Part shown: positions 24,831 to 45,504 of the stretch, one piece after another
Position numbering within the stretch: position 1 is the first letter of the stretch
Layout: each line of letters begins with the position of its first letter
Origin: Hydrogenimonas sp.
GTDB taxonomy: Bacteria > Campylobacterota > Campylobacteria > Campylobacterales > Hydrogenimonadaceae
Assembly: GCA_003945285.1 (NCBI GenBank)
Contig: AP019005.1
Span: 1 to 64,000, forward strand
DNA length: 64,000 nucleotides
Direction: 5' to 3'
The notes under the pieces: model-generated
Database searches by the model: none
Told to the model about the DNA's origin: nothing
What the model saw: only the letters and a program-made list of their open reading frames with translations
Made by a program: the position numbers and the translations under genes

Positions 24831-25201
24831 ACTTCTGTTTTATCTGCTAACATAACTTTCTATTCAATACTACTAAATGATAAAATAAGAAATTTTCATT
24901 ATCAAAGCTCTATATTCAATCCTTCCACTGCTTCTTAACTATATCAAAATATTATTCATCGATATTTACGAGAAATAAGAAATTTTTAAAACAATACCCA
25001 TATAATATAACTGAATAGCGGAAAACGCCGATTATATAGAGCAATCTTGATTGTTCGATATAGACGGCTTGTAGTGGAGCTGTAGATATTGAGGCTCAAG
25101 TATCGACGGGTATCCGTTCCATCATATGCAAAATTGAAATTTTTGCTTTTGTGATACGGATCGGCTGCTCTTCGTCAACATACCATAAACAAGGAGTAGG
25201 A
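24831..25201 (+). promoter_or_regulatory. Gene-free AT-rich region with probable promoter of the outer-membrane protein
   Basis: 371 bases with no gene. TATAAT at 25001-25006 is a good -10 candidate and would leave a leader of nearly 190 bases before the ATG at 25202. The leader holds a small hairpin (GAGCAATC facing GATTGTTC, about 25040-25057). AAGGAGTAGG lies just before the start codon. Nothing else is recognised. Confidence 0.5.
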
Positions 25202-26740
25202 ATGAGAAAATTTATAGCTTTGTCGGCAGCGGCGTTAGTAGCAACATCAGTCAGTCTTGCATCATCTACCGATGATCTTACAGCAGAGCTGGAAGCTCTT
25301 AAAAAAGAGGTTGAAGCACTTAAAAAGCAGACAAAAGGATTGAAAGCAAAAAAAATTAAAAAGCAGATTAGTCAATTGAAAGCTGCAGCACTTAACGATA
25401 ATATTAAGTGGAGTGTTGATTTTAGGACTGCATACGATGTAATCGGATACAAGTATTCTGACGGTAGTTCAGATTGGAATCAAATTATGACAAATAGGCT
25501 TTGGCTGGGCATGGGGTATGCACCTACAAGCAATATCACTTTCAAGGGGTTGTTGAGCTATTATAAAGCATATGGACAACTTACACAAAATCAGCCGACG
25601 GCACAGTTTAATTACTTTGACTGGGTGGTTAACGAAACACCTAACCCAAGTGGAGAGCTTAGAGTAAAAGAGGCGTATTGGCTATATTTTGGAGAAGATT
25701 TCTTTGGTGCAGATATTCCCTGGACAGCAAGTATCGGTCGTCGTCCGGCTACAGACGGCCTTCTGGTTAATTTCCGTGATGATCAAAATGCCAAATCTCC
25801 GCTCGGCCATATTATAAATACAGAGTTCGATGGTGCAAGTTTCAAATTTGATTTGAGTAATGTGACTGATATATCAGGAATGTATTTTAAAATATGTCTT
25901 GGTCGCGGTATGACCAACTCCAGTGTTCGTTATGCATATATACAACCAAATTTTGATCCAGCTACTGCATCTACCGGTTCTTTGGTAGTCGGCGGTACGG
26001 GTTCAGAGTATACAAAAGTGGATGGTTTTGACTCAACGGATCTTTTTGGTTTTATTTTTGTCCCATATGATGATGGTCAATATTCTGTTCATACAACAGC
26101 ATTTAAGGCTTTAAACTTGCCGGGTATAATAGTGACAGGCCAAGATTCATATGGACAAACTATAGGTAATTTTCAACAAGTAGGTGATCTATATGGGGAT
26201 GCTATTAGCTTCCTTGCACAAGGTATCGGCGACGGAATAAGTGATATGCTTGATGAAACTAATTTCTTTGTTAGTTTTTCTGCAAGCAAAACAGATCCGG
26301 ATGGAAACAATCAAATGCTCGGTATGATACTCCCAACAGGTCAGATTTTGGCTGCTGCTCCAGGAGAATCTAAAACCGGTACTTCTTGGTATACAGGTTT
26401 GAATTGGCCTTGTCAATTGATCGACGATGCACGTGTCGGAGTAGAATATAATCATGGTAGCCAGTACTGGAGAAGCTTTACATATGCCGAAGATACGTTG
26501 GCGGGAAGCAAGCTTGCTGCACGTGGTGATGCATTTGAAATTTGGTTCAATAAAGAGTTGATCGGTAAAATTTTAACAGCACAAGTCCGTTATACATATA
26601 TCGATTATAAATATACCGGCAGTAATGGATTTTTTGCCAACGGTGGCGCACCGCTCACTATTGATCAAGCGGAAGCAATGGGTATGACAACAGTTGATAA
26701 AGCTCAAGATATCCGTTTCTATATTCGCTATCGCTACTAA
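25202..26740 (+). CDS. DUF3373-type outer-membrane porin-like protein
   Basis: The 512-residue product has a signal peptide (about 1-20, cleavage near SLASST), a coiled coil (about 25-60; LEALKKEVEALKKQTKG), then a beta-rich region rich in Gly and aromatics and ending in the terminal aromatic motif RFYIRYRY typical of outer-membrane barrels. Segments such as RLWLGMG, LRVKEAYWLYFGEDFFGADIPW and SIGRRPATDGLL match the Campylobacterota DUF3373 family. ATG 25202 follows AAGGAG; the frame is open to 25151. Codon use is clearly more A/T-rich than its neighbours', which suggests transfer or a different expression class. The transported substrate is unknown. Confidence 0.8.
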   Translation: MRKFIALSAAALVATSVSLASSTDDLTAELEALKKEVEALKKQTKGLKAKKIKKQISQLKAAALNDNIKWSVDFRTAYDVIGYKYSDGSSDWNQIMTNRLWLGMGYAPTSNITFKGLLSYYKAYGQLTQNQPTAQFNYFDWVVNETPNPSGELRVKEAYWLYFGEDFFGADIPWTASIGRRPATDGLLVNFRDDQNAKSPLGHIINTEFDGASFKFDLSNVTDISGMYFKICLGRGMTNSSVRYAYIQPNFDPATASTGSLVVGGTGSEYTKVDGFDSTDLFGFIFVPYDDGQYSVHTTAFKALNLPGIIVTGQDSYGQTIGNFQQVGDLYGDAISFLAQGIGDGISDMLDETNFFVSFSASKTDPDGNNQMLGMILPTGQILAAAPGESKTGTSWYTGLNWPCQLIDDARVGVEYNHGSQYWRSFTYAEDTLAGSKLAARGDAFEIWFNKELIGKILTAQVRYTYIDYKYTGSNGFFANGGAPLTIDQAEAMGMTTVDKAQDIRFYIRYRY

Positions 26741-26790: not shown

Positions 26791-27813
26791 CTATGAAATC
26801 TCTTTCATAAGGTTATCTGCTATATCTTTATAGAACTCTTTTTGCAGTTTGTCTCCCATCGCTACTGGCGGCCTGCCTTCATCGGACAACTCTCTGATCC
26901 GCATATCGAGCGGTATCCTGCCCAAAAACGGTATCGAGTATCTTTTTGCTGTCTCTTCTCCGCCCCCGCTTCCGAAAATGTCGTATCTTTTTTTCGTATC
27001 CGGTGCTATGAAGTAGCTCATATTTTCCACGAGCCCCCCTATCGGGACATTTATATCTTTGAACATCATAATGGCCCTGCTGACGTCATCGAGTGCGACA
27101 GGTTGGGGGGTCGTGACTATGACCCCGGCGCTTATTGGCAGCTCCTGGGCCATCGTCAGCTGTATATCACCGGTGCCGGGAGGCATGTCTATTACGAGGA
27201 AATCGAGCTCCCCCCACTCTACATCTTCCAGAAACTGTATCAGAGCGCTTACGGCTACCGAGCTTCGCCAGACGAGAGGGGTATCGGAGGAGGGGGTAGT
27301 CAGCCCGACACTCATTATCTTTATTCCGAAGTTCTCGCTGGGGACTATTTTGTCATTCTCGTTCCACTGCAGCTTCTCGTGGGCGGTTCCGACCATTCTG
27401 GGCACATTGGGTCCGTATACGTCGGCATCCAGAAGTCCAACCTTGAACCCTTTCTGGGCGAGCGCGACAGCGAGGTTGACCGATACGGTACTCTTGCCCA
27501 CGCCCCCTTTCCCGCTTGTAACGGCTATGACCCTCTTTGCGTAGGGGGCCCTGTTGTTGGGATTTGAAGTATTACCGTAGTTGATGCTTTTTTTCGCTGG
27601 AGCCTCTCTCTCTATCATTACGCTGTCGCCGAACATATCTTCCAGTGTGGATTTTATCTTCATAAAGGCTTCATCGTTCTGCATCGAAAGCAAAACTGTG
27701 CTCTTTCCATCTTTTTCTGTAACCTCTTTTACGACCTTCATCTGAACTATCGACTTCTCCAGCCCCGGATAGTTCACCTTTTCCAACTCTTTGAGCAGAC
27801 TCTCTCTATTCAT
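26791..27813 (-). CDS. mrp: Mrp/NBP35-family Fe-S cluster carrier ATPase
   Basis: Loads or transfers Fe-S clusters to apoproteins. The 340-residue product has an N-terminal MIP18-like domain (about 1-75) and the deviant Walker A SGKGGVGKSTVSVNLA (about residue 101), LLDADVYGPN, and VIDMPPGTGD. The usual C-terminal CxxC is not obvious: the segment around NMSYFIAPDTKKRY has no Cys pair, so cluster binding may differ. Its start overlaps the upstream gene by 8 bases. Confidence 0.9.
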   Translation of the reverse strand: MNRESLLKELEKVNYPGLEKSIVQMKVVKEVTEKDGKSTVLLSMQNDEAFMKIKSTLEDMFGDSVMIEREAPAKKSINYGNTSNPNNRAPYAKRVIAVTSGKGGVGKSTVSVNLAVALAQKGFKVGLLDADVYGPNVPRMVGTAHEKLQWNENDKIVPSENFGIKIMSVGLTTPSSDTPLVWRSSVAVSALIQFLEDVEWGELDFLVIDMPPGTGDIQLTMAQELPISAGVIVTTPQPVALDDVSRAIMMFKDINVPIGGLVENMSYFIAPDTKKRYDIFGSGGGEETAKRYSIPFLGRIPLDMRIRELSDEGRPPVAMGDKLQKEFYKDIADNLMKEIS

Positions 27814-28177
27814 ACGGATTACTCCTCATCTCCCGCTGTAACAGCAGTATGGTCGAGTTCGCCTTGTGTATCCACTCTCTTGTCAGGTCGGATGCCTCGG
27901 GAAAGTTTCGGGCCAGTGCCGTGTAGCTCTCGATTCGTCTTTTGAGCAGCTTTATGAATTGCGCCAGCATCTTTTGTGTCAACCCGTTGTCGTGAGCGTG
28001 GCGCATGATCTGTTTCAAGAGGGCGCTGCGATCTTTCATCGGCAGATCGAGCCCCAGCTCCTTTCCTATCTCTACAAAATCTGCACCGGTAATATATACG
28101 CCGGAGTAGAATAGTGCCAAAAGGTGATTCTCCACACCTTCATATGCCGGGGGTATATTCTCTATCTGCTGTTTCAA
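27806..28177 (-). CDS. Uncharacterised small helical protein
   Basis: 123 residues, mostly alpha-helical and charged, with no domain I can name. It overlaps mrp by 8 bases and the upstream repeat-protein gene by 4, so the three form one transcription unit; co-transcription with mrp hints at a link to Fe-S or metal handling, nothing more. Confidence 0.6.
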   Translation of the reverse strand: MKQQIENIPPAYEGVENHLLALFYSGVYITGADFVEIGKELGLDLPMKDRSALLKQIMRHAHDNGLTQKMLAQFIKLLKRRIESYTALARNFPEASDLTREWIHKANSTILLLQREMRSNPYE

Positions 28178-28746
28178 GTTTCACCTCTTCGTTTCAGATT
28201 TACCTCTGCCGCTTTTGCCACATTTTCATCTCCGTCGCCGGTGAGTTTCTCCAGAACCTCTTTGGGTGTCGAAGGGTTTTCCGCGACCCTCATACGCACC
28301 ATCTTGTCCGAGTCGTCCGCAAGCACGGCGAGGATTTTCGGAGGTACCGAAGGGTTCCCGGAGAGACCGTCTCTGACGATCTTCTCATCGTTGAAGAGCC
28401 TCTGGAGAACATCGGAAGGGGTATTGGGGTTTGTGGCAGCAAGCGCTCTGACCAGGTTTATCTTGTCTTCGGCAAGCTTTTGAAGTATATGCGAAGGAGT
28501 GTGGGGGTTTTTCGCAACCGCCCAGCGGCTTCCCATATCTTCGGTTTCGCTGAGCCTTACCAGCAGCTCCACCATTAGAGGATCTCTACCCATATCCTTA
28601 TCGTATACCGATGTGCGCATGCTAAGATTCATTGCGACCTGTCCGACGACCTCCATGTCGTCTGTAAACGCTTCAAAAATCTCTTTTACCCTCGTCAAGG
28701 GAAGATCCCTGTTTTTAAGCTCTTCTATTGAACTCTCTCTTTCCAT
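28174..28746 (-). CDS. Leucine-rich-repeat-variant (LRV) type protein
   Basis: The product has about four repeats of some 25 residues of the form VAKNPHTPSHILQKLAED, AATNPNTPSDVLQRLFND, LSGNPSVPPKILAVLADD, VAENPSTPKEVLEKLTGD, the LRV pattern that makes an alpha/3-10 solenoid. No Fe-S Cys cluster, found in some LRV proteins, is visible. I prefer the ATG at 28746 (MERESSIEEL); the frame is open to 28875 but the extra N-terminus looks non-coding. Neither start has a good ribosome-binding site. Likely a protein-binding scaffold. Confidence 0.65.
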   Translation of the reverse strand: MERESSIEELKNRDLPLTRVKEIFEAFTDDMEVVGQVAMNLSMRTSVYDKDMGRDPLMVELLVRLSETEDMGSRWAVAKNPHTPSHILQKLAEDKINLVRALAATNPNTPSDVLQRLFNDEKIVRDGLSGNPSVPPKILAVLADDSDKMVRMRVAENPSTPKEVLEKLTGDGDENVAKAAEVNLKRRGET

Positions 28747-29121
28747 AATATATATAGCACTTTCATAGGGGATTGGAACCGAAATCTGCACCGGAAGGTC
28801 CGGTTGCGTTATCGGGACTGAAATTATGGTAGCGAAAAGGGTAGTCGTAGTCAATACCGAAATGAACACTCTCATGGAAAGGAGCGATAGGCTTATTGTG
28901 AAACCGATTTTCGGTGTATATAATCAGTTTAACTGCCGAAGCACTTCATAAGAATTGTATATGAGTCGATATAGTTGTTGCAAAGTCGGCCTAAGGGGTT
29001 ATAAATCGTAGGATAAGACCCTTTTAAAGCTGGCTTAAGAAATTAGTTTCTATAATGAATTGTTATCGGGAATCCCGAAAAATCGGTGCATTAGACACCT
29101 TGAACAAACACATAAGGAGTT
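28747..29121 (+). promoter_or_regulatory. Divergent intergenic region; promoter of the molybdoenzyme operon
   Basis: No supported gene in about 375 bases. TATAAT at 29051-29056 within TTTCTATAATGAAT is the likely -10 box for the plus-strand operon beginning at 29122; no -35 consensus is seen. ATAAGGAG precedes the rhodanese start. No convincing operator was found. Confidence 0.5.
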
Positions 29122-30204
29122 ATGATGAAGCAGTGGTTCAGGACGCTTTGCTTTGCGGCTGTCTTTTCCGCCTCGACACTGTTGGGTGCGGATAAGATCA
29201 CGATACAGCCTGAAGAGGCTGTAAAGCTGATTGGGAAACCCGGCTATGTCTTTGTGAGCGGAGACAGTGAAACGGCATTCGAAGGCGGCCATATAAAAGG
29301 GTCGCGAAATATGTATGCGCACCATCTGCATCATGCGGATCTCATGGGAAACCTGGAGTGTGAACCTCTCTATCAGTGTCCCGAACATGCGGAGCACTAC
29401 ATAAGCAGCAAGGGGATAAAAAGGAGCGATACGATCATCGCTTACGACAACTGGAGAGGCCCCAACGCTACGGGAGTCTACAGCTTCTTCAAATCATACG
29501 GGCACAAAAAGGTCTACATCCTGGACGGCGGACTCGACGGCATAAAGGCACTCGATCCCAACCAGAAGATATATGACAGGCTCAAAAAGGAGAAGAGGGC
29601 TGTAAAAAAAGCCTATAAAAAGGCGAAAAAAGCGGGAGACAAGGCGAAAATGGCCGAATTAAAGGCAAAAAAACAGGAGATCACCGCCCAGATGAAACAG
29701 GTGTCTAAGAAGCTGCTTGTCCAAAGAGGGAAGGAGAAGCACTTCAAGCATACCCACTACAAGATCAGAAAAAGCGAAATAGATACGAGTGCGATCGCGG
29801 GCACCGAAGAGGTGTTTGAAGCCATGCAGGATATCCTGAAAAACGGCAAAAAGAGCAAGTATGTCATTGTAGACTCCAGAAGCATGATCGAGATAATCGG
29901 AGAGAGAAAGATGGACAATGTCGCCAGGGGCGGGCATATACCGGGCTCGACTTTCATAGAGTGGAAGAAGGTGACGGACTTCGAAAGGAAGAAGAGCTTC
30001 CGTCCGCTCAAGGAGCTGGAAGAGACTTTCAAGAAGTACGGAATCACCAAGGATAAGACGATCTACGCCTATTGCCAGGTGGGTGCCGGTCGCGGATCGG
30101 ATATCGTAGTCGCTCTGCAACTGCTTGGATACAAGAATGTCAAAGTGTATACCGGGGCATGGGATACCTGGGGTAACAATATGAATCTGCCGATTCGACG
30201 CTAA
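29122..30204 (+). CDS. Periplasmic tandem-rhodanese sulfurtransferase
   Basis: 360 residues with a signal peptide (about 1-23, ending LLGADK). The N-terminal rhodanese-like domain (about 25-150) has no catalytic Cys: its loop reads AYDNWRGPNAT. A Lys/Ala-rich linker helix (about 155-215) leads to the C-terminal rhodanese domain, whose active loop AYCQVGAGRGSD (about residue 318) has the Cys. Such enzymes move sulfane sulfur between donor and acceptor. It is the first gene of the molybdoenzyme operon, 12 bases before the catalytic subunit, which suggests a sulfur-related substrate or help in cofactor sulfuration; both are inferences. Confidence 0.88.
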   Translation: MMKQWFRTLCFAAVFSASTLLGADKITIQPEEAVKLIGKPGYVFVSGDSETAFEGGHIKGSRNMYAHHLHHADLMGNLECEPLYQCPEHAEHYISSKGIKRSDTIIAYDNWRGPNATGVYSFFKSYGHKKVYILDGGLDGIKALDPNQKIYDRLKKEKRAVKKAYKKAKKAGDKAKMAELKAKKQEITAQMKQVSKKLLVQRGKEKHFKHTHYKIRKSEIDTSAIAGTEEVFEAMQDILKNGKKSKYVIVDSRSMIEIIGERKMDNVARGGHIPGSTFIEWKKVTDFERKKSFRPLKELEETFKKYGITKDKTIYAYCQVGAGRGSDIVVALQLLGYKNVKVYTGAWDTWGNNMNLPIRR

Positions 30205-30216
30205 GGGAGAGAGAAG

Positions 30217-33112
30217 ATGACGAAAAATATGAAAAGAAGAGACTTTCTGAAGTTTTCCGGAGTAACGGCGGCACTGGTGGCCTCCCAGGGGAGCCTGTTC
30301 GCCAAAACCGGTGTAATCAAGGTAGAAAACGGCAAAGAGAACTATCCTAACACCACATATACGGAAGAGATGTACCGCAATGAATTCGACTTTACCCGCG
30401 GAAAGAAGGAGGAGACGGGGTTTGCGTACCACTGTGTAAACTGTCAGGGCAACTGTGCATGGGAGGTGTGGTCGCACAACGGCGTAGTGACACGTGAAAA
30501 CCAGTCGGCCAGATATCCCTCCATCAATGCGAAGATTCCCGACTTCAATCCCAGAGGGTGCAACAAGGGTGTTCAACATTCACAGATAATGTATGAAAAA
30601 GATAGAATCCTCTACCCTATGAAAAGGGTTGGAGAGCGCGGAGAGGGCAAGTGGAAGCGAATCAGCTGGGATGAAGCCGCTACGGAGGTGGCGGAAAGGA
30701 TTTTCGATGTCATGACCGATCCCGAGAGGGGGCCGGACAAACTTATGGTGCACGCCGGTACCGGTCTTCTTACGGAAGGCCGCCGCGGAGCTCCTCTTCG
30801 ATTCTCGACTCAGCTCGGGGCGGTAAGGATCTACCCGGCTTCCTATCTGGGTGATATGTTCTCCGGGGCCGCCATAGCTTACGGAGAGGGGAATGTCGGG
30901 GGAACCTACGACTTCATGTACAGTGTCGACACTTCGATATTCTGGGGAGGAAACCCTTCCGTCTCCAGAATACCCGATGCCCACTTCGTATGGGAAGGCA
31001 AATACAACGGTGCGAAGGTCATCATCATCACACCGGAGTTCAACGCTTCGGCGAAGTCTGCGGACCTATGGATTCCCGTAAAGCCGGGCAGTGACAATAT
31101 TCTGGCGATGAGTGTCATCAATGTAATTCTGAACGAAAAGCTCTACAAGCCGGGGTTCATGAAGATATTTACAGATCTGCCGTTCCTGGTGCGTCTGGAC
31201 AATCAGAAACTGCTTCGACGGTCCGATATGGAGCATGCCAGGAATGAAGAGGAGGAGGAGAAGTTCCACGAGGAGTTCTACTCTATGAACGCCAAAACAG
31301 GCAAGCCGGCCCTCATGCCCGGAACGGAAGGAAACGAGCATCATACACTCCGCCTGGAGGAGTTCGGTATCGATCCGGAGCTTGAAGGAGAGTGGACGGT
31401 AAAAACCCTCGACGGCGATGTCAAAGTTACGACGGTTTTTGAACTTCTCAAAAAATCGGCTGCCCGCTTCTCCCCGGAGAAGACGAAGGATATTACCGGG
31501 GTCCATCCGGATGTGGTGCGCGAACTGGCTCACGACATAGCGAAGCCGAAGGTTGTAACCATTACGACTGGATTCTCCCTGAACAAGTACTTCAACGGTG
31601 TCATGACCACTCTGGAACATCGCATCTATCTGCGGCCTGACCGGGCGTATGGGACCGTACGGCGGCCTGAATACCGAAAACGAGTTCAGTCTCAGCGGCC
31701 TGGGTGCGCTCAGCGGCTTCAGCGGCAAATATGCGCCCCGCTTCGGCTCCGGCTTCGTCGGAGAGTTTGTCTTCGGTGACGGTATGAAGACCTTCGACAG
31801 ATACTTCAGCGACAAAGATGTGCGCCGCGCCCAGAACGGTATGAGCAAGAAAGATTATATGGAGATCGTTCAGAAGCTGCTGGAAGAGGGTAAAAACGGA
31901 AAAGCGAACAACGAGTCGCACCACGGCAACGTCGTCAAACCCTGGTGGCAGCCGGATACGGCGATTATTGTCGCGGACTCTAAATTCAGGCGGAACAAGG
32001 GAAGCGATTATCGCGAAGCCTTCTTGAAAAAGACCAGGTTCTTCTGCTACGTCGATTTCAGGATGAGCGAAGCGGCGGTCTATGCCGACATTCTCCTCCC
32101 GGCGAAGTCCCATTACGAAGTTTACGACATCAGAACGAGTCCGGGCTACCACAGGTTTACCAACCTCGCCCAGCCTATAGCGAATATGAAGCCGGTAGGC
32201 GAAGCGATGGATGAGTGGAGCATGTTCGCTCTTCTGGCCAAGAAGCTCGAAGAGGTTGCCAACCGACCGGAAAACATAGCTAAAGCGAAGGTAAAAGATC
32301 TTAAAAAGTATGCGCGTGAAGGGTATCACGACCTGGCCAACTTCTATAAGGAGTTCACAAATACCGACGAAGAGTCCGAAGCCGCCGCTGAGCCCTACCT
32401 CGGAACCGACAAGCTGGCGGTAGAGGCAGCTTTGGAGAAGTGCGAACAGTACGCTCCGTGGACGATGGAGAAGATGTATAAGGCGGGCGGGTTCCTGCAG
32501 CTGAACGAAAAAGCCGGCAAGACTTCGCCCCTCTACTCGGACAGACCTTTCTTTACATTCGAAGATCACCTCTATAAATTCGAGAGGCTGGAGACACTCA
32601 GCGGGCGGCAGACGTTCTATGTGGACCATCCGATGTTCATCAAACTCGGAGCCGCTACGAATACCGGAATGGAAGGGATCAGACCGCAGGGCAACAGGTA
32701 CCCGTTCGTCCTCATGACGCCTCATGCCAGATGGTCGATCCACTCCAACTACAAGCAGAGCAGGATTCTCCAGCGTCTGCAAAGAGGGGTTCCCTATATT
32801 CAGGTAAACAGAATGGTGGCCGAGAAGAAGGGGATAAAAGATGGCGATACTATTCGGATATTCAACAGCCTGGGAGAGTTCTACGCGATGGCCAAAGTCT
32901 CCAGCTCGTGTCCTCCAGACGGGCTCGTCATGGAGCATGGATGGGAGCCTTATATGTACAAATTCAAAAAGGGACACAACGAGGTAGTTCCTACGGCGCT
33001 CAACCTGCTCGAGATGGCAGACGGATGGGGCCACCTGAAATTCGGCGGCCTCTGGGACGGTAACCAGTATGCGTACGACGGTGCGATCGACTTCGAAAAA
33101 GCAAATGTGTAA
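30217..33112 (+). CDS. Type II DMSO-reductase-family molybdoenzyme, catalytic subunit (one frameshift)
   Basis: About 965 residues over two frames. The Tat signal is RRDFLKFSG (residues 7-15). The FS0 cluster ligands are HCVNCQGNC (His-x3-Cys-x3-Cys) followed by RGCNKG, as in NarG, DdhA, SerA, ClrA and EbdA. ASYLGDMFSGAAIAYGE (about residue 210) contains the Asp expected to ligate molybdenum in the type II clade. Frame 1 runs to about 31632 and the rest continues in the next frame (GRMGPYGGLNTENEFS); one extra base near 31630 accounts for this. The substrate cannot be read from the sequence: nitrate, selenate, chlorate, dimethyl sulfide and hydrocarbon enzymes share this clade. Confidence 0.88.
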
Positions 33113-33126
33113 GGTAGGAGAGCAGT

Positions 33127-34227
33127 ATGTCTAAACGACAATTAGCAATGGTAATGGATTTGAACAAATGTATCGGATGCCAGACATGTACGGTCGCATG
33201 TAAAACCCAGTGGACCAACCGGAACGGCCGCGAGTATATGTACTGGAACAATGTGGAGACATATCCGGGCACAGGGTATCCGAAGAACTGGATGGAGATG
33301 GGCGGAGGCTTCGACGAAGCCGGAGATCTGCAGGCGGGAGTGGTCCCGAACATAGAGGCCGATTACGGTGTGCCGTGGGACTACAACCACGATCAGCTGC
33401 AGTTCGGTGCGCAGCTGAAACCGAACGTGGAGCCTACATGGGGGCCCAACTGGGATGAAGATGAGGGTGCCGGCGACTTCCCGAACGACAACTACTTCTT
33501 CTATATTCCCAGAATATGCAACCACTGCTCCAACCCGGGCTGTCTGAGCGCCTGCCCCCGTGACGCGATCTTCAAGCGCGACCAGGACGGAGTGGTGCTC
33601 GTCGATCTGGACAGGTGCCAGGGGTATCGCTACTGTATAGCGGGATGCCCCTACAAGAAGATCTACTTCAACCCCAAAATAAGCAAGAGCGAGAAGTGTA
33701 TTCTCTGCTTCCCGAGGGTAGAGAAGGGTCTTCCGCCGGCTTTTGCGCAGCAGTGCGTCGGACGTATACGCTTCGTCGGCTTCCTCGATGACGAGGAGGG
33801 ACAGGTTCACAAGCTCGTACACAAATACAAAGTGGCTCTGCCGCTCAGAAGCGACTACGGTACCCAGCCCAACGTCTACTATGTGCCGCCTACCGAAGCG
33901 CCGCCGAAGTTCGATGCGGAAGGGCGGATCATAGAGGGAAGCAACCGTGTGCCGATGGAGGAGCTGGAGCAGCTCTTCGGTCCCGAAGTGCACCAGGCCA
34001 TGAAGACTCTCAGGGCGGAGATGAAGAAGAGAAAAGAGACCGGCAAGAGTGAGCTCATGGATATTCTTATCGCATACAAGCACTCGGATATGTTCCGTCT
34101 CGACCAGGAGTACTACCAGAGTATCGCCAAAAAGTCGGGAATATCCCTTGCGCCGATCGACAACAGGTATATACAGGGTAAGAACACTCCCAACAAATTC
34201 AAGTTCAAGGTGGTGGAATATGACTAA
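33127..34227 (+). CDS. Type II DMSO-reductase-family Fe-S (beta) subunit
   Basis: Electron-transfer subunit passing electrons between the Mo subunit and the haem subunit. The 366-residue product has four cluster motifs: CIGCQTCTVAC (about 15), CNHCSNPGCLSACP (about 131), CQGYRYCIAGCP (about 164, with Tyr where NarH-type proteins have Trp, the hallmark of a [3Fe-4S] site) and CILCFPRVEKG ... QQCVGRIRF (about 190-217). It has no signal peptide, so it is expected to be exported with the Tat-tagged catalytic subunit. It overlaps the next gene by 8 bases. Confidence 0.92.
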   Translation: MSKRQLAMVMDLNKCIGCQTCTVACKTQWTNRNGREYMYWNNVETYPGTGYPKNWMEMGGGFDEAGDLQAGVVPNIEADYGVPWDYNHDQLQFGAQLKPNVEPTWGPNWDEDEGAGDFPNDNYFFYIPRICNHCSNPGCLSACPRDAIFKRDQDGVVLVDLDRCQGYRYCIAGCPYKKIYFNPKISKSEKCILCFPRVEKGLPPAFAQQCVGRIRFVGFLDDEEGQVHKLVHKYKVALPLRSDYGTQPNVYYVPPTEAPPKFDAEGRIIEGSNRVPMEELEQLFGPEVHQAMKTLRAEMKKRKETGKSELMDILIAYKHSDMFRLDQEYYQSIAKKSGISLAPIDNRYIQGKNTPNKFKFKVVEYD

Positions 34228-35416
34228 GATAACTACTGCACTTCTGGCAACTTCGCTTGCCGCATCGGCGCTGTTGGCCGACGGCCCCATTCTGGCGCAG
34301 AAGACCCAGAGAGATGTCACCAAGCTGACTCCTACCTCGAAGGCGTGGGAGTATGTCAAGGCTACGACTATCCACCTCTATCCGCAGACGGCGTTGACGA
34401 TGAACGACAGGAAGGCGAATGAGCTGAATGCGAAAGCGAAAGCGAAGGAGGCGCGGGTCAAGGCGATCCACGACGGCAAGAATATAGCTTTTCTGCTTGA
34501 GTGGCTCGACGGGACGCGCTCCATTCAGAGGGGGTACAGGTCCGACGTCTATGCGGACGGCTTTGCCGTACAGTTTCCCGTTGACTACCGGGATCCGACC
34601 AAGCTTCCCTATATCGGGATGGGCAGCGACGGCAGACCCGTCGTGATACATCTTCAAAAGGCCGTGGAGAAGGTTTATGAACCGAATGGAAACGGTGATG
34701 TATCGATGCGGCAGAATATCTTGAGCAAAAACGCATTCGGCGACGATACCGTCGAGTTTGCCCAAAAGGTGGGAGCGCTGGCCGTCAAGGACTATCAGCG
34801 CTCCTTCATCTCGGAGGGCTTCCGCTCGATGACCGAGATAAAAGATGGAAGTGAAAAGTTCAGTGCGGATATGAAGTACGGCGACAATGTCTGGAAAGGG
34901 ACTCTCGTGAGGCCCCTGAAAGACAGCTATCTCAACCTCAAAGGCGCCTTTCCGGTAGCGTTTGCGGCATGGGACGGTGCGAAGCTCAACCGTGACGGGC
35001 AGAAGCTCCTTTCAGGGTGGCTGGCTGTCAAAATGGTGGACGAAAACGGAGGCGAAAAGCTTGTCGCCGAACTTACCGCTGCTGCAAAGGGGGATGCGGA
35101 GCACGGAAAAGAGCTTATTGAGCAGAACGGCTGTACGGGATGCCACCAAATAAGCGGCCTCAGCCCTGCAAGCTACATGGCACCGGGGCTGGACAATGTA
35201 GGGGGATACTCAACCGCGGCATATCTGAGGGAGTCGCTGGTTGACCCCAGTGCGGTAGTGGTTCCCGGTTACAACAGAAACGCCCACCCGAGCGCCGTCT
35301 GGTATAACCTGGATCACGGCAAGCGCGTATCGACCATGCCCCCATATCCGCTTGACGATAAGAGCCTGGACGATATGGTGGCCTATCTGAAAACCCTCAA
35401 ATCGGAGGTGAAGTGA
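34220..35416 (+). CDS. Gamma subunit: EbdC-like haem-b domain fused to a cytochrome c domain
   Basis: 398 residues with a signal peptide (about 1-20, ALLADG). The body (about 25-290) resembles the ethylbenzene-dehydrogenase-type haem-b subunit. The C-terminal 100 residues are a monohaem cytochrome c with NGCTGCHQISG (CxxCH) and a later Met in VSTMPPYPL as the probable axial ligand. In the described dehydrogenases the gamma subunit is a separate haem-b protein, so this fusion would give a built-in route to a soluble cytochrome or to the membrane. ATG 34220 overlaps the beta gene. Confidence 0.82.
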   Translation: MTKITTALLATSLAASALLADGPILAQKTQRDVTKLTPTSKAWEYVKATTIHLYPQTALTMNDRKANELNAKAKAKEARVKAIHDGKNIAFLLEWLDGTRSIQRGYRSDVYADGFAVQFPVDYRDPTKLPYIGMGSDGRPVVIHLQKAVEKVYEPNGNGDVSMRQNILSKNAFGDDTVEFAQKVGALAVKDYQRSFISEGFRSMTEIKDGSEKFSADMKYGDNVWKGTLVRPLKDSYLNLKGAFPVAFAAWDGAKLNRDGQKLLSGWLAVKMVDENGGEKLVAELTAAAKGDAEHGKELIEQNGCTGCHQISGLSPASYMAPGLDNVGGYSTAAYLRESLVDPSAVVVPGYNRNAHPSAVWYNLDHGKRVSTMPPYPLDDKSLDDMVAYLKTLKSEVK

Positions 35417-35823
35417 TGAAAAAGATTTTGATGTTTGCCCTCTCCGCCGCCTTTGCGGCTACGCTCTTCGGCGGAAGCGAAGGGATCGAGAAAAAAGGGT
35501 TCCTGACAACCAAATGGTGTGCCGAGAACGATATGTTCAAGGATTGCAGGCTTGAAACCGCCGTTTGCGGATATGCAGGATGCTTCAAGAACTGGGAGTT
35601 CGGGGACCCGATAAAAGAGGAGTTGGTCCTTTATGTTCATGACGACGGGAAGTATTACAGGGTTACACTGGACAAAATCGGGCGCAGCGAACTGGACGAG
35701 GCTATCAACAGGAATGAGGTTACGATCATAGGCTCCTACGATGAGAAGAGAAATACGATTCATGCGACCGAATTCAAAGCTCCGCCGCCGCCCAAGAAGT
35801 CCTTTTTCAAAGGCTGCCTCTGA
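35416..35823 (+). CDS. Uncharacterised small periplasmic protein with five Cys
   Basis: 135 residues with a signal peptide (about 1-19). The mature part has Cys in KWCAEND, KDCRLE, AVCGYAGCF and at the end KGCL, and a Pro-rich APPPPKK stretch near the C-terminus. No domain recognised and no CxxCH motif. The ATG at 35416 overlaps the gamma-subunit stop and has GGAGGTG just upstream (a GTG at 35413 is less likely). It ends the first gene block of the operon; a strong hairpin follows. Confidence 0.7.
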   Translation: MKKILMFALSAAFAATLFGGSEGIEKKGFLTTKWCAENDMFKDCRLETAVCGYAGCFKNWEFGDPIKEELVLYVHDDGKYYRVTLDKIGRSELDEAINRNEVTIIGSYDEKRNTIHATEFKAPPPPKKSFFKGCL

Positions 35824-35824
35824 T

Positions 35825-35852
35825 ACGCATCCGCCGATTCGGCGGGGGCGTC
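35825..35852 (+). terminator. GC-rich hairpin after the molybdoenzyme structural genes
   Basis: ACGC-at-CCGCCGATTCGGCGG-gg-GCGT forms a nested stem. No T-run follows, so it may be a transcript-end stabiliser or a partial terminator between the structural genes and the chaperone gene. Confidence 0.35.
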
Positions 35853-35985
35853 TTACGAAGGTAATTAACTGACCTAACGCAAAATCCGCACGCCGAGCGG
35901 TATTTACCCTGCGGTACGCTGTAAAATATCTATATGGCCTTTAGAGGTGCCCATAACCCTTCTGATACCACCAAGGATTCTCATA

Positions 35986-36565
35986 ATGGATGACAGAACA
36001 AGACTCTATATCTACGCATTTTTATCACGTATATTTACCGAAGAGCTTGACGAAAAGGCTCTGAGAGATCTAGCCGGCAACGAAGAACTGCTTAAAACAA
36101 TAGGGGAAGATACCGCTGAGTGGTTTCAGCGAAGCGATCTTGAGAAGATAGGCGAAGAGCTGAATATAGACTACAACTCTCTTTTCGTCATTCACAACCA
36201 CCCGATCGAGTCATCCGTTACCGATAGCAAGAACGAGATACTCGTAGGTCTGCAAAATCCGGTTATGCAGTTCTACTTCAGCCGCGGATACGACCTGAAT
36301 ATGGAGAGGCTCCAAGCTGTATGTGCCGGACCATGCCGGTATAGAGTTCGGATTTATGCAGAGTATGATAAGCCAGAATGACAAAACGGCGCAGGAGGAG
36401 TTTTTGCGCAGCCATCTTGTCAGGTGGATAGTCCCTTTTCTCATCGGCGTGAAACCTATGGCTGCGACCCCTTTCTACCGCGATATTTGCGACTTCACTA
36501 TCGAGTTTCTTCTCTCGGACTACTCCCTCTTGAGGGCGGAGAGCGGAGGAACGGATGAGAGGTGA
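35986..36565 (+). CDS. TorD/DmsD-type molybdoenzyme chaperone (one frameshift)
   Basis: Cytoplasmic all-helical chaperone that protects the Tat signal and helps insert the Mo cofactor. The first part (MDDRTRLYIYAFLSRIF ... QNPVMQFYFSRGYDL) and the second part (VPDHAGIEFGFMQSM ... TPFYRDICDFTIEFL) match one TorD-family protein of about 190 residues; PDHAGIEFGFM is the family's conserved PDH motif. The frame changes near 36325, where the first frame reads on into 36381 without sense. One extra base explains it. Its position beside a Tat-exported molybdoenzyme supports the call. Confidence 0.8.
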
Positions 36566-37635
36566 ATCTTTAGGCGGAACGGATCTGTTCAAGTTCGACT
36601 CTTTCAGCTGTCTAAGAAGCGACTATGCAAAAAATGAGTGCTCCATATGTATAGATCTCTGCCCGGAAGAGGCGATGGTTTTCGACCGGAACAGGCTGAC
36701 CCTGGACAGAGAGAGATGCACGGGATGCGCGGCATGTGTCGGTAGCTGCCCTACCGAAGCCCTGATCAGCGAAGTTTTCGACCCGAATATATTCGCCGTT
36801 GAATTTCCGAAGCGCAGCGGCGGCGGTCTGATCTCCTGTAAAGAGAGCCTGCCGTGCCTCGGGGCTCTCTCCGTAGAGCATCTGATAACCATAGCTTTAA
36901 GAAGTGAATCGGAGCCGGTCTGTGATCTTGCCCACTGCAAAGAGTGCACAGTAAACTCGAACGGTAATGTGCTGAAGAGCATAGAGAGGAGTGTTGAAGA
37001 GGCCCGAAGTTTCCTGAAAAGCGTAGGGATCGGAAAGGGGATTTCTGTTAGATACGATCTCTCCGGAGATGCGGATGCGGGGCGCAGGGGGCTGTTAAAG
37101 AAGCTTACAGGAATCGCCGCCGAATTTTCACAGGACGTTCACCGAAGCGAGCAGGCCGCATCCTCTGAGGAGAGGGTTCCTTTGAAGAGGGTGATTCTCA
37201 AGAACTCTTTGAAGGCGGTTGCCGAAGATTTTGGGGACTCATCCGCCGTAGAGTCACTTTTTTCGTTTGCCGCAAATAAGAAGATAGATGCCGACAGCTG
37301 CACAAACTGCCAGGAGTGCGCAATGTTCTGCCCCGACCGGAGCACTCTCGATACTCCGGGATAACAGCGGAATAGTGTTTCAATCCGGAAAATGTATAGC
37401 CTGCGGGATATGTGACGACATATGCCGCCCCGGATCCATCACCGATTCGGAGAGGCTGGACCTTGTGGATTTTGCATTCGACAGGATGCAACTGCTCGTG
37501 AAGCACAGGCTCGAGATATGCGAAGAGTGCAAAGTGGCATTTCCGTATAGAGGCGGCGATATGATCTGCGACCGCTGCCGCGACTTCAAGGAGAACTTCT
37601 CGGACCTCTTTACCCTGGCAAAAGATATAGAGTGA
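36555..37635 (+). CDS. Multi-cluster ferredoxin of the molybdoenzyme operon (one frameshift)
   Basis: About 360 residues with four cysteine clusters: CSICIDLCP and CTGCAACVGSCP (about residues 29 and 55), then CTNCQECAMFCP and CIACGICDDICRP near the C-terminus, plus extra Cys in CKECTV and a final CEECK ... CDRCRD zinc-ribbon-like pair. The N-terminal and C-terminal parts are in different frames; the break is in the CCCC run at 37331-37335, and removing one C restores CPTGALSIL. It overlaps the chaperone gene by 11 bases. It probably supplies electrons or helps assemble the enzyme in the cytoplasm; there is no signal peptide. Confidence 0.82.
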
Positions 37636-40558: not shown

Positions 40559-41997
40559 ATGCAAGCTACAGCCGGCGCAGAGACGCCAAAAAGAAAAAAT
40601 AGAGCCAAGGAGTACCTCAAAGGGTGGGTACCCTACCGGTACAAACGCTACTGGCTGTTTGCCATAGTGACGGTAGTGGCCCTGGTGCTGCCGTTCATAA
40701 AGATAAACGGCAACCACTTCTTCCTTCTCAACTTCGACCATAGGAGGTACTTTCTCTTCGTGCGGTTCGATATGCAGGAGTTGTACCTGATGCCCTTTTG
40801 CTGATGCTTCTGTTTCTTGGGATCTTCTTCATGACGACCCTGGGCGGAAGGGTCTGGTGCGGCTGGGCATGTCCCCAGACGATATTCCGCGTTATATACA
40901 GGGATCTTTTCGAGACCAAACTGCTTGGCCTCAGAAAGCGAATAACGAACAAACAGCAAGAGCCCGACTGGAGTAAGCCGGAGAATAAGGCGAAAGAGGG
41001 TGTGGCTATAGTGCTGTGGTCCGTGCTCGCCCTTATAGCGGCAGACCGACTTCACATGGTACTTCGTTCCACCGGAGGACTTCTTCCGCTATATCCAGGA
41101 CCCGGCATCCCACCCGGTGCTTATAGGCTTTTGGCTGGGAATAGCACTCTTTCTTATAGTGGATGTGGCCCAAAGAGAACTTCTGCATCTACATCTGCCC
41201 ATACAGCAGAGTGCAGTCGGTTATGTACGATGACGATACGATAATGGCTATCTACGATGTACACAGAGGGGGCATATCTACGACCATGAGGGTCAAGACG
41301 GTAAAAGCTGGTACACAACATAAAAGAGGCACGAAAGAGAGCCTGAAGCGGAGTGTACCCGGTGAAAGGCGCGTGAAAGTGTGCCGGACCCATATAGATA
41401 TACGCCAGGGTATGCGGTTGAGGTATAAACTGCCTCGAGTGTGTGGACGCATGTACAAAGTGATGGGGCTCTCGGTAAACCGAGCCTCGTACAGTGGAGC
41501 GACCCAGAGATATAGAGAAACGTGAGGGCAGGACAAAGTATAAGACCGAGAACGGTAGCATACGCAGTCGCCCTGACGATAGTGACGGTAGCCCTTTCGT
41601 AATGGGCACCAAAAAGAGCATATCGCTTCAGCATAAACAAGACGGCCCCAGCTCTACAGATTCACCCACGACGGCAGAGTGGTAAACGACTATACCTTTC
41701 TGTTCCAGAATACGGATACGAAAGATCATACATACTACTTCGAGGTTGTGGACAACCCGAAGATAAAGATAGTCAAACCGACAAAACCGTTCAAACTTCT
41801 GGCCCGTAAAAGGCGAAGAAGATCGTACAGCTGGAAGCGGTAGAGCCGCTCGCCGAAAACAGCAGGAAAGATACACCGGTCCCGATAACCATAAGGGCCT
41901 TCGCGACGGATGACCCAGAAAGATATCGGTGACCAGGCGTACGGTGTTTGTCTATCCCAGGTGGGATATAGTGCAGAAGCATCTGCAGGAGCGGTGA
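40559..41997 (+). CDS. ccoG: Cytochrome c oxidase accessory protein CcoG (many frameshifts)
   Basis: Membrane Fe-S protein needed for cbb3 oxidase copper-site maturation. The N-terminal part reads normally (AKEYLKGWVPYRYKRYW, first transmembrane helix), then fragments in all three frames give TTLGGRVWCGWACPQTIF, NFCIYICPYSRVQSVMYDDD, KINCLECV-type Fe-S residues and the C-terminal RTVFVYPRWDIVQKHL. The first break is one T missing from the run at 40797-40799, which would restore LMPFLLMLLFLG. The ATG at 40559 has AAGGAG upstream. No cbb3 genes are in the window. Confidence 0.85.
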
Positions 41998-43920: not shown

Positions 43921-45504
43921 ATGACATATCTTACCATCATTCTTACCGCCATATTTCTGTCGGGTTGCTATAAACTCGGTACTCAAGAGAGTCGATTCCG
44001 ACCATAATAGGCATATCGCCACCGGTGTAGCGATATCGGCTATTTTCGATCTGCACGGAAGCTACGAAGAGCTTGGAGAGATAGCCGAGTTCGGTATCGT
44101 ATTTCTGATGTTTACGATCGGGTTGGAGTTTTCGTTCAGGCGCCTTGGCGATGCGCAAAGAGGTGCTTCTTTCGGCTCTATGCAACTTCTGCTCAGCGCC
44201 CTTATTTTCGGGCTGGTCGCTTACTGGTACGGCATGACGCTTCAGGGGCGATTATTACCGGTTTCGCCCTGGCGCTCTCTTCGACCGCCATCGTTTTGAA
44301 AACCCTGAACGAAACCGGAGAGGTTCAGGCACCCTACGGCAGAAAGTCTGTCGGCATTCTGATCTTCCAGGATATGGCTGTCATTCCGATACTTCTAATG
44401 ATTACGATCTTCTTTCCGACAGTACCGATATCGGGGAGATGCTCCAGATTATAGCGATAGACGCCGTAATCGTCGTAGCCATAATTTATCTTCTGGGTAA
44501 ATATGTATTCGAGTGGCCTTAGCTGGGTTATAAAGGCCGACTCTTCCGAGATATTCATGGAACGGTACTCTTTCTGGTCATGGGATCGGCTGAGCTGGCG
44601 CACCTTTTCGGTTTATACTCTCGGAGCCTTCCTCGCGGGCATGATGCTGGCCGAAACACACTACAAGTACCAGATAGAGGCGGAGCTTATCCCGTTCAGA
44701 GATCTGCTTCTGGGACTCTTTTTCGTAACGGTCGGTATGCAGATAGATCTTCAGGCGGTCTCCGAGAATATCGGGTGGATAGTGCTTGCCGCCGTTGTCA
44801 TTATGGTTATAAAATTTGCCGTCATACTCTTTTTCATGCGTTTTTCACGCGCGCCAGATGCTGTAAAGACAGCTCTTGCGCTTTCGCAGGTGGGCGAGTT
44901 CTCGCTTGCGGTCTTCGCTCTCGCCTCTTCAGGCGGACTTCTCGATCCGAGATCGGTGCAGATAATCCTGTCGGCGGTTGTCCTATCGATGGTCTTTTCG
45001 GTTTTATTCTCGCCAACATACGCAGAATCGCGGACCTATTCTACCGGGAGCCGGAGATGGTGCCGATTCTCCACTCGACAGGATTCAGAGATCATATCGT
45101 AGTCTGCGGCTTCGGCCTTTGGGGCGCCACGTCGTGAAGGAGCTCAAAAGCAGGGTGTGCAGTATCTGATACTCGAACATGATATTCACAGGATGGAACT
45201 CGGTCAGAAGATGGGAGAACCTATATTTTTCGCCAATGCGGCAAATGAAGAGGTTCTTAAAAATTTCGATGTCGACAAGGCAAGTGCAGTTATCGTAGCG
45301 GTCGACAATCCGAGTCACCTGCGGCTTATATGTGAAGCCCTCAACCGTGTTGCGCCTATGGCCAATATCGTCGTAAAGGTGCAGAGTGAAGTGGAGGCAG
45401 AGATGGTCGACGACCTCAAAATTGATCACCTGGTTATTCAGAGCGAGGAGATGGCGAAAAGGTTGGTGGCGGAGGCCATGCGCCGCAGACTCGGAGTACC
45501 GTAA
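43921..45504 (+). CDS. KefB-type monovalent cation:proton antiporter with TrkA-N domain (many frameshifts)
   Basis: CPA2-family membrane protein of about 530 residues. Fragments in order: MTYLTIILTAIFLS, IPTIIGYIATGVAIS, EFGIVFLMFTIGLEFS, ITGFALALSSTAIVLKTLNETGE, GILIFQDMAVIPILL, AFLAGMMLAETHYKYQIEAE, RDLLLGLFFVTVGMQID, ALALSQVGEFSLAVFALA. A cytoplasmic TrkA-N domain follows (HIVVCGFG and QYLILEHDIHRMEL), ending RRRLGVP. Exports K+ or Na+ in exchange for protons; which ion is not clear. Confidence 0.85.

Follow-up and report, generated by a model that had tools for sequence, protein, structure and literature searches.

The genome of Hydrogenimonas sp. (GenBank assembly GCA_003945285.1, contig AP019005.1) consists of a single contig of 2.19 Mb. 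The first 64 kb of this contig were analysed (the window), and at positions 29122 to 37635 they contain an operon that encodes a rhodanese, a molybdenum (Mo) catalytic subunit (alpha), an iron-sulfur (Fe-S) subunit (beta), a haem subunit (gamma), a small cysteine protein referred to here as CysP, a TorD-like chaperone and a polyferredoxin. Judging from the sequences, this operon probably encodes a periplasmic Mo-dependent sulfane-sulfur dehydrogenase that substitutes for SoxCD using unrelated parts. The alpha subunits form a new and widespread clade that is related to the type II molybdoenzymes and is linked to two sulfur partners. Vents, caves and aquifers are habitats in which Campylobacterota play a major part in sulfur oxidation, and many of these bacteria have no SoxCD.

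The genes were assigned from the open reading frames with Pfam and NCBIfam profiles. A sequence-only reading of the window had given the same genes in the same order, with a twin-arginine translocation (Tat) signal, an H-x3-C-x3-C site and a likely Asp ligand in alpha, all of which are present; it missed that the frames of the alpha, TorD and ferredoxin genes are not open in this assembly. The genes are the following:

29122 to 30204, forward strand: exported tandem rhodanese (Pfam PF00581 twice, E 1.6e-27)
30217 to 31608, forward strand: first part of the Mo catalytic (alpha) subunit, with Tat signal, H-x3-C-x3-C FS0 site, Asp and molybdopterin domains
31610 to 33112, forward strand: second part of the alpha subunit, in another frame (one frame in 9 of 9 relatives)
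33127 to 34227, forward strand: beta subunit with ferredoxin-type Fe-S clusters (TIGR03478, 519.3 bits, cut-off 480.7)
34220 to 35416, forward strand: gamma subunit with an EB_dh haem-b domain and one cytochrome c domain (PF09459, 1.1e-29; PF00034, 3.3e-9)
35416 to 35823, forward strand: CysP, a secreted cysteine protein of 135 residues with a predicted core like the oligonucleotide/oligosaccharide-binding (OB) fold and a proline-rich tail ending in KKSFFKGCL, a proposed sulfur-carrier arm
35986 to 36565, forward strand: TorD-like chaperone, break at 36306/36308 (weak NF003442 match, E 0.0065)
36555 to 37635, forward strand: polyferredoxin, break at 37334/37333

The conservation of the operon was examined in a set of 32 loci and in a further set of 87 (80 named plus 7); the two overlap in part, with 14 alphas shared, and sequences are therefore counted as distinct sequences. 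Wherever the contig allows, the order rhodanese-alpha-beta-gamma-CysP is kept in the 32-locus set. Among the 87 loci, which are from Campylobacterales, CysP lies downstream of alpha in 68 of 68 where the contig leaves enough room (>3.4 kb), and the rhodanese lies upstream in 75 of 75 (>1.3 kb), a conservation that the sequence-only reading requires of the rhodanese. TorD was found in 56 and the ferredoxin in 54 of the 60 loci with more than 5.5 kb of room. The rhodanese-to-CysP block occurs in loci of 11 family labels, and CysP spans 12 family labels in a sample of 396 Campylobacterales genomes that are at least 90% complete; the block is thus kept together far beyond chance. Among 100 relatives, CysP was found in 37 and close alphas in 41, the four with alpha and without CysP (G008, G011, G014 and G038) being fragmented drafts. 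Among the 80 relatives listed out of 164, the named carriers include Hydrogenimonas, Sulfurovum, Sulfuricurvum, Sulfurimonas, Sulfurospirillum, Nitratiruptor and Thiovulum, and nearly all are metagenome-assembled genomes (MAGs). Of the relatives with a genus name, Hydrogenimonas MAGs are the closest to the window's genome. A phylum-wide draw of 200 genomes, which gives no count of those outside Campylobacterales, had CysP in 19, all of them in Campylobacterales. Two alphas on separate contigs were seen in G039 (L062, L063) and G064 (C34, C104), and in G039 both sit within a rhodanese-to-CysP block.

The relationships of alpha were determined with a maximum-likelihood tree of 21 Campylobacterota sequences and one each of ClrA, PcrA, EbdA (in two pieces) and NarG, together with two haloarchaeal enzymes, a plasmid enzyme encoded next to chlorite dismutase and a distant outgroup; SerA and DdhA were not included. 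The 21 alphas form a single clade (support 100/100) on a long stem, and the tree as a whole carries a program warning about the meeting of long branches. In this tree with only one ClrA, ClrA is the sister of the clade (89/82) and EbdA comes next, and PcrA, NarG and the two haloarchaeal enzymes group apart. Identity to alpha is 36.8% for ClrA, 32.1% for PcrA, 29.9% for EbdA and 27.7% for NarG, whereas members of the clade share at least 65% with one another. The alphas of three intact relatives score 785.2, 772.7 and 792.8 bits with TIGR03479, which is below its cut-off of 984.75 and yet makes it the best-scoring family. All 92 distinct intact alphas have the motif YLGD and the motif HCxNCxxxC, which holds the H-x3-C-x3-C FS0 site. 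The Asp of the window's alpha aligns with D170 of PcrA, which we take to be a Mo ligand. In this region NarG, PcrA and the haloarchaeal enzymes have FYDWY-x-D, and the alpha clade, ClrA and EbdA have no FYDWY. The catalytic subunit therefore lies outside the tested nitrate, perchlorate and chlorate reductases, as the sequence-only reading requires, with the selenate enzyme SerA outside the comparison.

These results bear on the possibility that the enzyme is a reductase of an oxyanion (nitrate, or chlorate or selenate) that is fed by cytochrome c, with a rhodanese that is incidental or protective. The nearest characterised relative tested is ClrA, one paper names the operon Nar and two more appear to do so. 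On the other hand, the NarG cut-off of 1084.15 bits was reached in 0 of 8 genomes, in 7 of which the best NarG-like stretch is this same alpha, and no NarI- or NrfD-type anchor subunit and no chlorite dismutase were matched in the operon block with the Pfam and NCBIfam profiles. Additionally, the linkage of the rhodanese and CysP and the exclusion with SoxC described below would be left without explanation. We consider an oxyanion reductase quite unlikely, and the points against it are weaker for chlorate and selenate, as the tree was made without SerA. An identity as NarG or a chlorate reductase was rejected on tree position, sub-cut-off NarG score and missing FYDWY (with SerA and DdhA outside the tree). 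For the chlorate reductase Clr, alpha is sister to, and not inside, the single ClrA, and the block has no match to the chlorite dismutase that adjoins ClrA. Alpha also does not group with the perchlorate reductase Pcr, as PcrA is on the other side of the tree and the FYDWY is absent. Dimethyl sulfide dehydrogenase is also an enzyme of the type II kind, absent from the tree, and a dehydrogenase of organic sulfur (dimethyl sulfide, methanethiol) or of a hydrocarbon would agree with a position of alpha close to EbdA and ClrA in the tree. It would explain neither the linked rhodanese and CysP nor the SoxC exclusion, and many carrier titles among the same 80 relatives are those of sulfur-cycling genera, so this possibility is regarded as very unlikely.

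The gamma subunit has a single CxxCH in 88 of 88 distinct sequences. With TIGR03477 (cut-off 169.85) the gamma of the window scores 98.4 bits and that of an intact relative 101.1, both below the cut-off, and a third gamma (L051) has no TIGR03477 match at 1e-20.

The two sulfur partners carry residues that are nearly invariant. In the rhodanese the active-site loop of the C-terminal domain is C-Q-V-G-A-G-R, and in the N-terminal domain Asp replaces the Cys and a CxPLxxC motif is present. The loop reads C-[QHM]-V-G-[ATS]-G-R in 98 of 99 distinct rhodaneses (115 of 116 copies), the exception being a split-gene fragment in L086. The CysP tail FFKGCL is found in 86 of 87 distinct sequences, and the remaining one (L100) runs into a contig end. 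No Pfam family, NCBIfam family or PDB sequence matched CysP above the threshold, and PADLOC gave nothing; the best of the sub-threshold Pfam matches was to a lipoprotein attachment site, seen in 3 of the 20 members. Its AlphaFold model (mean pLDDT 80.4) has a predicted OB-like core. VIA-align matched this model to OB-like folds with Z of at most 6.2, with PriB and SSB on top and CcmE and YgiW below, and Foldseek returned nothing at E 0.001 or better; the matches may reflect only a common arrangement. By analogy with other sulfur carriers, we infer that CysP could carry sulfur on the near-terminal Cys of its tail. It is also conceivable that the rhodanese and CysP serve the maturation of the Mo site or the clusters and not substrate delivery, as a sulfurtransferase (FdhD) is required by some molybdoenzymes. 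However, the assembly of Tat enzymes precedes their export, and the N-termini of the rhodanese and CysP resemble export signals by eye (no signal predictor was run), with a lipobox-like motif in 9 of 102 CysP copies; a role in maturation is therefore highly improbable.

The distribution of the operon relative to the Sox genes was determined in the same 396 genomes. SoxC was counted as present at E <1e-120, which gives the same 155 genomes as the cut-off of TIGR04555 (420 bits), and two genomes that do not reach the cut-off are included in the SoxB count: G010 has a single partial match of 532 bits, and in G315 the match is divided between two contigs. CysP is present in 79 genomes and SoxC in 155, and both are present in 4, against 30.9 expected if they were independent. 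When only the 139 genomes with SoxB are considered, CysP is found in 22 of the 24 without SoxC (families f1, f8, f16 and f18) versus 4 of the 115 with SoxC; without G010 and G315 there are 137, with CysP in 21 of 23 and 4 of 114, respectively. This near mutual exclusion supports a sulfur substrate, which had been guessed from the window.

Relatedness inflates raw co-occurrence counts, and the genomes with SoxB were therefore broken down by family. In f16, all 9 genomes with the operon are without SoxC and all 27 without the operon have it; within this family, genus g59 has 7 genomes with operon and SoxB and without SoxC, and the two listed with SoxB and without the operon (G164, G388) have SoxC. 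In f8 the single genome with the operon is without SoxC and 45 of 45 without the operon have it. All 3 such genomes of f1 and 9 of 10 of f18 with the operon are without SoxC (the tenth has it), and neither family has a genome without the operon. Families f6, f7 and f9 contribute 7 genomes without the operon, all with SoxC, and f21 one with neither. When the absence of SoxC was shuffled inside families, the mean was 14.3 and the maximum 19, and the observed 22 was reached in 0 of 20000 shuffles. The operon and soxB can also be neighbours. In three f18 genomes (L153, L155 and L156) they are about 6-14 kb apart, and soxXYZAB are named in L153, whose SoxY ends in GGCG; in L154, soxC, soxY and soxB are followed on the same strand by the operon, 1.6 kb past soxB. 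Weak SoxC-like matches occur in 21 of the 79 genomes with the operon and in 19 of the 166 with neither system. SorAB as the enzyme that finishes sulfur oxidation is unsupported, as SorA (NF052245) does not follow the operon: it is over the cut-off in 0 of 100 genomes and has no match in any of the 18 genomes of the genus, the window's own included.

A mechanism for the dehydrogenase can be proposed, and here the substrate, the direction, the order of transfer and the product are what we infer. Thiosulfate, polysulfide or a SoxY persulfide would supply sulfane sulfur to the Cys in the C-terminal domain of the exported rhodanese, which would hand it to the penultimate Cys of the CysP tail. The tail would then enter the Mo subunit, where the bound sulfur would be oxidised with water in a six-electron reaction, as SoxCD does on SoxY. 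Electrons would pass through FS0 and the beta clusters to haem b, to the fused cytochrome c and on to a cytochrome c oxidase or some other acceptor in the periplasm. Assembly would be aided by TorD and the polyferredoxin, and perhaps by the divergent genes for Mrp and leucine-rich-repeat-variant (LRV) proteins. Cytochrome c as the partner fits oxidation energetically and makes sulfur reduction unlikely.

A reductase of polysulfide, thiosulfate or tetrathionate, to which the rhodanese and CysP present sulfur as Sud does for Psr, would account for the sulfur partner genes. One carrier (L124) also speaks for it, namely Sulfurospirillum arcachonense, which one paper describes as microaerophilic and sulfur-reducing (PMC4794192). 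Against it, the exit chain of haem b and cytochrome c is too positive to drive sulfur reduction, the block holds no match to an NrfD- or NarI-type anchor, and the operon complements SoxCD in genomes with SoxB. Taken together, the findings agree better with an oxidase (dehydrogenase) than with a reductase, and we consider a sulfur reductase unlikely.

Several observations weigh against a SoxCD substitute. One is this sulfur-reducing carrier, and another is the weak fold match of CysP. The proposed mechanism does not explain how the product is released from CysP, above all where SoxB is absent. In f20, 2 genomes with SoxB and the operon and 11 without the operon all have SoxC; in f5, 1 with the operon has SoxC and those without it comprise 21 with SoxC and 1 without. 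The within-family case therefore comes mainly from f16, to which f8 adds one genome, because f20 and f5 do not have the pattern and f1 and f18 have no SoxB genome without the operon. Both systems are present in four genomes, one of them a single contig (G181), and two genomes with SoxB (G037, G201) have neither SoxC nor the operon. At E 0.001, none of SoxB, SoxC and SoxY is matched in the genome of the window, and SoxB was not counted in 53 of the 79 genomes with the operon, so the system must also work without Sox. The survey covered SoxB, SoxC and CysP. Finally, co-occurrence does not amount to function.

The proposed dehydrogenase can be compared with several known systems. It shares with the type II dimethyl sulfoxide (DMSO) reductase family (ClrABDC, SerABDC, DdhABDC, EbdABCD, PcrABCD) a Tat alpha with H-x3-C-x3-C and Asp, a beta that is over the TIGR03478 cut-off, an EB_dh haem gamma and a TorD-like chaperone. 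Unlike the curated type II enzymes, it has an alpha below the TIGR03479 and a gamma below the TIGR03477 cut-off and falls in a clade of its own; its gamma is fused to cytochrome c, a rhodanese and CysP are linked, and the chaperone gene follows gamma, whereas in clrABDC it lies between beta and gamma. The likeness to SoxCD-SoxYZ is in the proposed function, a Mo enzyme with a carrier that has a near-terminal Cys, in the link to cytochrome c and in the nearly exclusive distribution; the Mo enzyme is of another family, however, a rhodanese is added, and the operon can occur without Sox. CysP has no SoxY family match in NCBIfam, and its tail is FFKGCL and not GGCGG. The C-terminal arm of DsrC is flexible and bears a near-terminal Cys, and CysP shares such an arm with DsrC/TusE but is exported-looking and OB-like, with no sequence relation found. 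Psr of Wolinella is a Mo enzyme that is served by the periplasmic rhodanese Sud, but it is a quinol-linked reductase with an NrfD anchor.

The operon has been seen in print before. A study by Bizic et al. (2022) reports a six-gene "rhodanese + narGH" operon of Thiovulum stygium that was read as a nitrate reductase; it is the same by content, with rhodaneses, narG, narH, a cytochrome-c-like gene and an unannotated gene (PMC9938260). The T. stygium genome (L086) has a split rhodanese, alpha, beta, gamma and CysP, and no NarG over the cut-off (G054). The same study gives no known route for further sulfur oxidation in Thiovulum (PMC9938260). Hamilton et al. (2015) describe Sulfuricurvum genomes without soxCD and with a membrane-bound Nar, as well as Sulfurovum-like bins PC08-66 and FS08-3 without Sox (PMC4288042). 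The operon is present in MAGs L079 and L078 from the samples of that study, although it is not established that these are the same bins. An enrichment from Zeitz is described by Keller et al. (2015) as having no Sox but NarGHI (PMC4674564), and the genome of this enrichment (L095) carries the operon. The Nar of these last two papers would be this operon. Sulfate was present in spent medium of Sulfuricurvum kujiense according to another paper (PMC6890823). The sequence-only reading had called the system undescribed; this holds for its function, of which no description was found in the open-access literature, a body that misses most subscription journals, and does not hold for the operon itself, which the Thiovulum study had already noted (PMC9938260).

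There is an even chance that bacteria oxidise sulfur by one more carrier-arm route in addition to Sox and rDsr/sHdr, namely the self-contained periplasmic set of rhodanese, a new OB-like Cys-arm carrier and type II-like molybdoenzyme. This route would have replaced SoxCD in several lineages of Campylobacterota and would be the step that is missing in Thiovulum, Sulfuricurvum, Nitratiruptor and Hydrogenimonas, hidden in databases as a nitrate reductase. The swinging-arm principle of sulfur chemistry can also be tested anew on this operon. One survey concluded from missing SoxC that such bacteria do not use sulfur oxidation as their main source of electrons (PMC5401914); this inference would fall if the operon does substitute for SoxCD. 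Claims of nitrate reduction that are based on "NarGH" in such genomes would then have to be re-examined, and complete sulfur oxidation would gain a marker.

The frame breaks in this assembly were compared with relatives. Alpha runs in frame 1 up to 31608 and in frame 2 from 31610 (break at about 31609), and the alpha, TorD and ferredoxin genes, which each shift frame once here, are each in a single frame in 9 of 9 relatives compared. The neighbouring genes, which are those of rhodanese, beta, gamma and CysP as well as mrp and moaC, have open frames. Alpha is 94-97% identical to its two closest relatives both before and after the break. Relative to other genomes, breaks are also found outside the operon, in a CcoG-like gene (40559-41905) and in another gene at 44.25 kb (43955-45498). 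Decay of this operon in particular was therefore rejected as the main cause; assembly indels are likelier, and the assembly seems to be indel-rich. A true loss of function in the source strain may nevertheless have occurred. Alpha is also split in two further genomes (L053/L069), after about 697 codons in G077 and near codon 290 in G065, and the sites differ.

Three genes lie divergently beside the operon:

28174 to 28875, reverse strand: LRV protein (PF01816, 7.1e-17)
27806 to 28177, reverse strand: small protein without a family (no Pfam match)
26791 to 27813, reverse strand: Mrp/NBP35-type Fe-S carrier (PF10609, 4.8e-97)

Among 44 named loci with room, Mrp and the small gene are each found beside the operon in 38 and LRV in 33, and these genes perhaps have a role in the maturation of Fe-S clusters. 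A gene at 25151-26740 that is labelled porin-like is near the operon in many relatives and is a possible entry route for sulfur. When plasmids were searched with the first part of alpha, 774 records matched, none with at least 60% identity, and the best-ranked was ClrA (39.3%). Haloarchaeal plasmids L151 and L164 encode type II-like enzymes beside genes for Rieske, cytochrome b and HEAT proteins, with no rhodanese annotated, and a conjugative plasmid of Alisedimentitalea (L152) encodes an enzyme labelled PcrA-like beside chlorite dismutase and Mrp.

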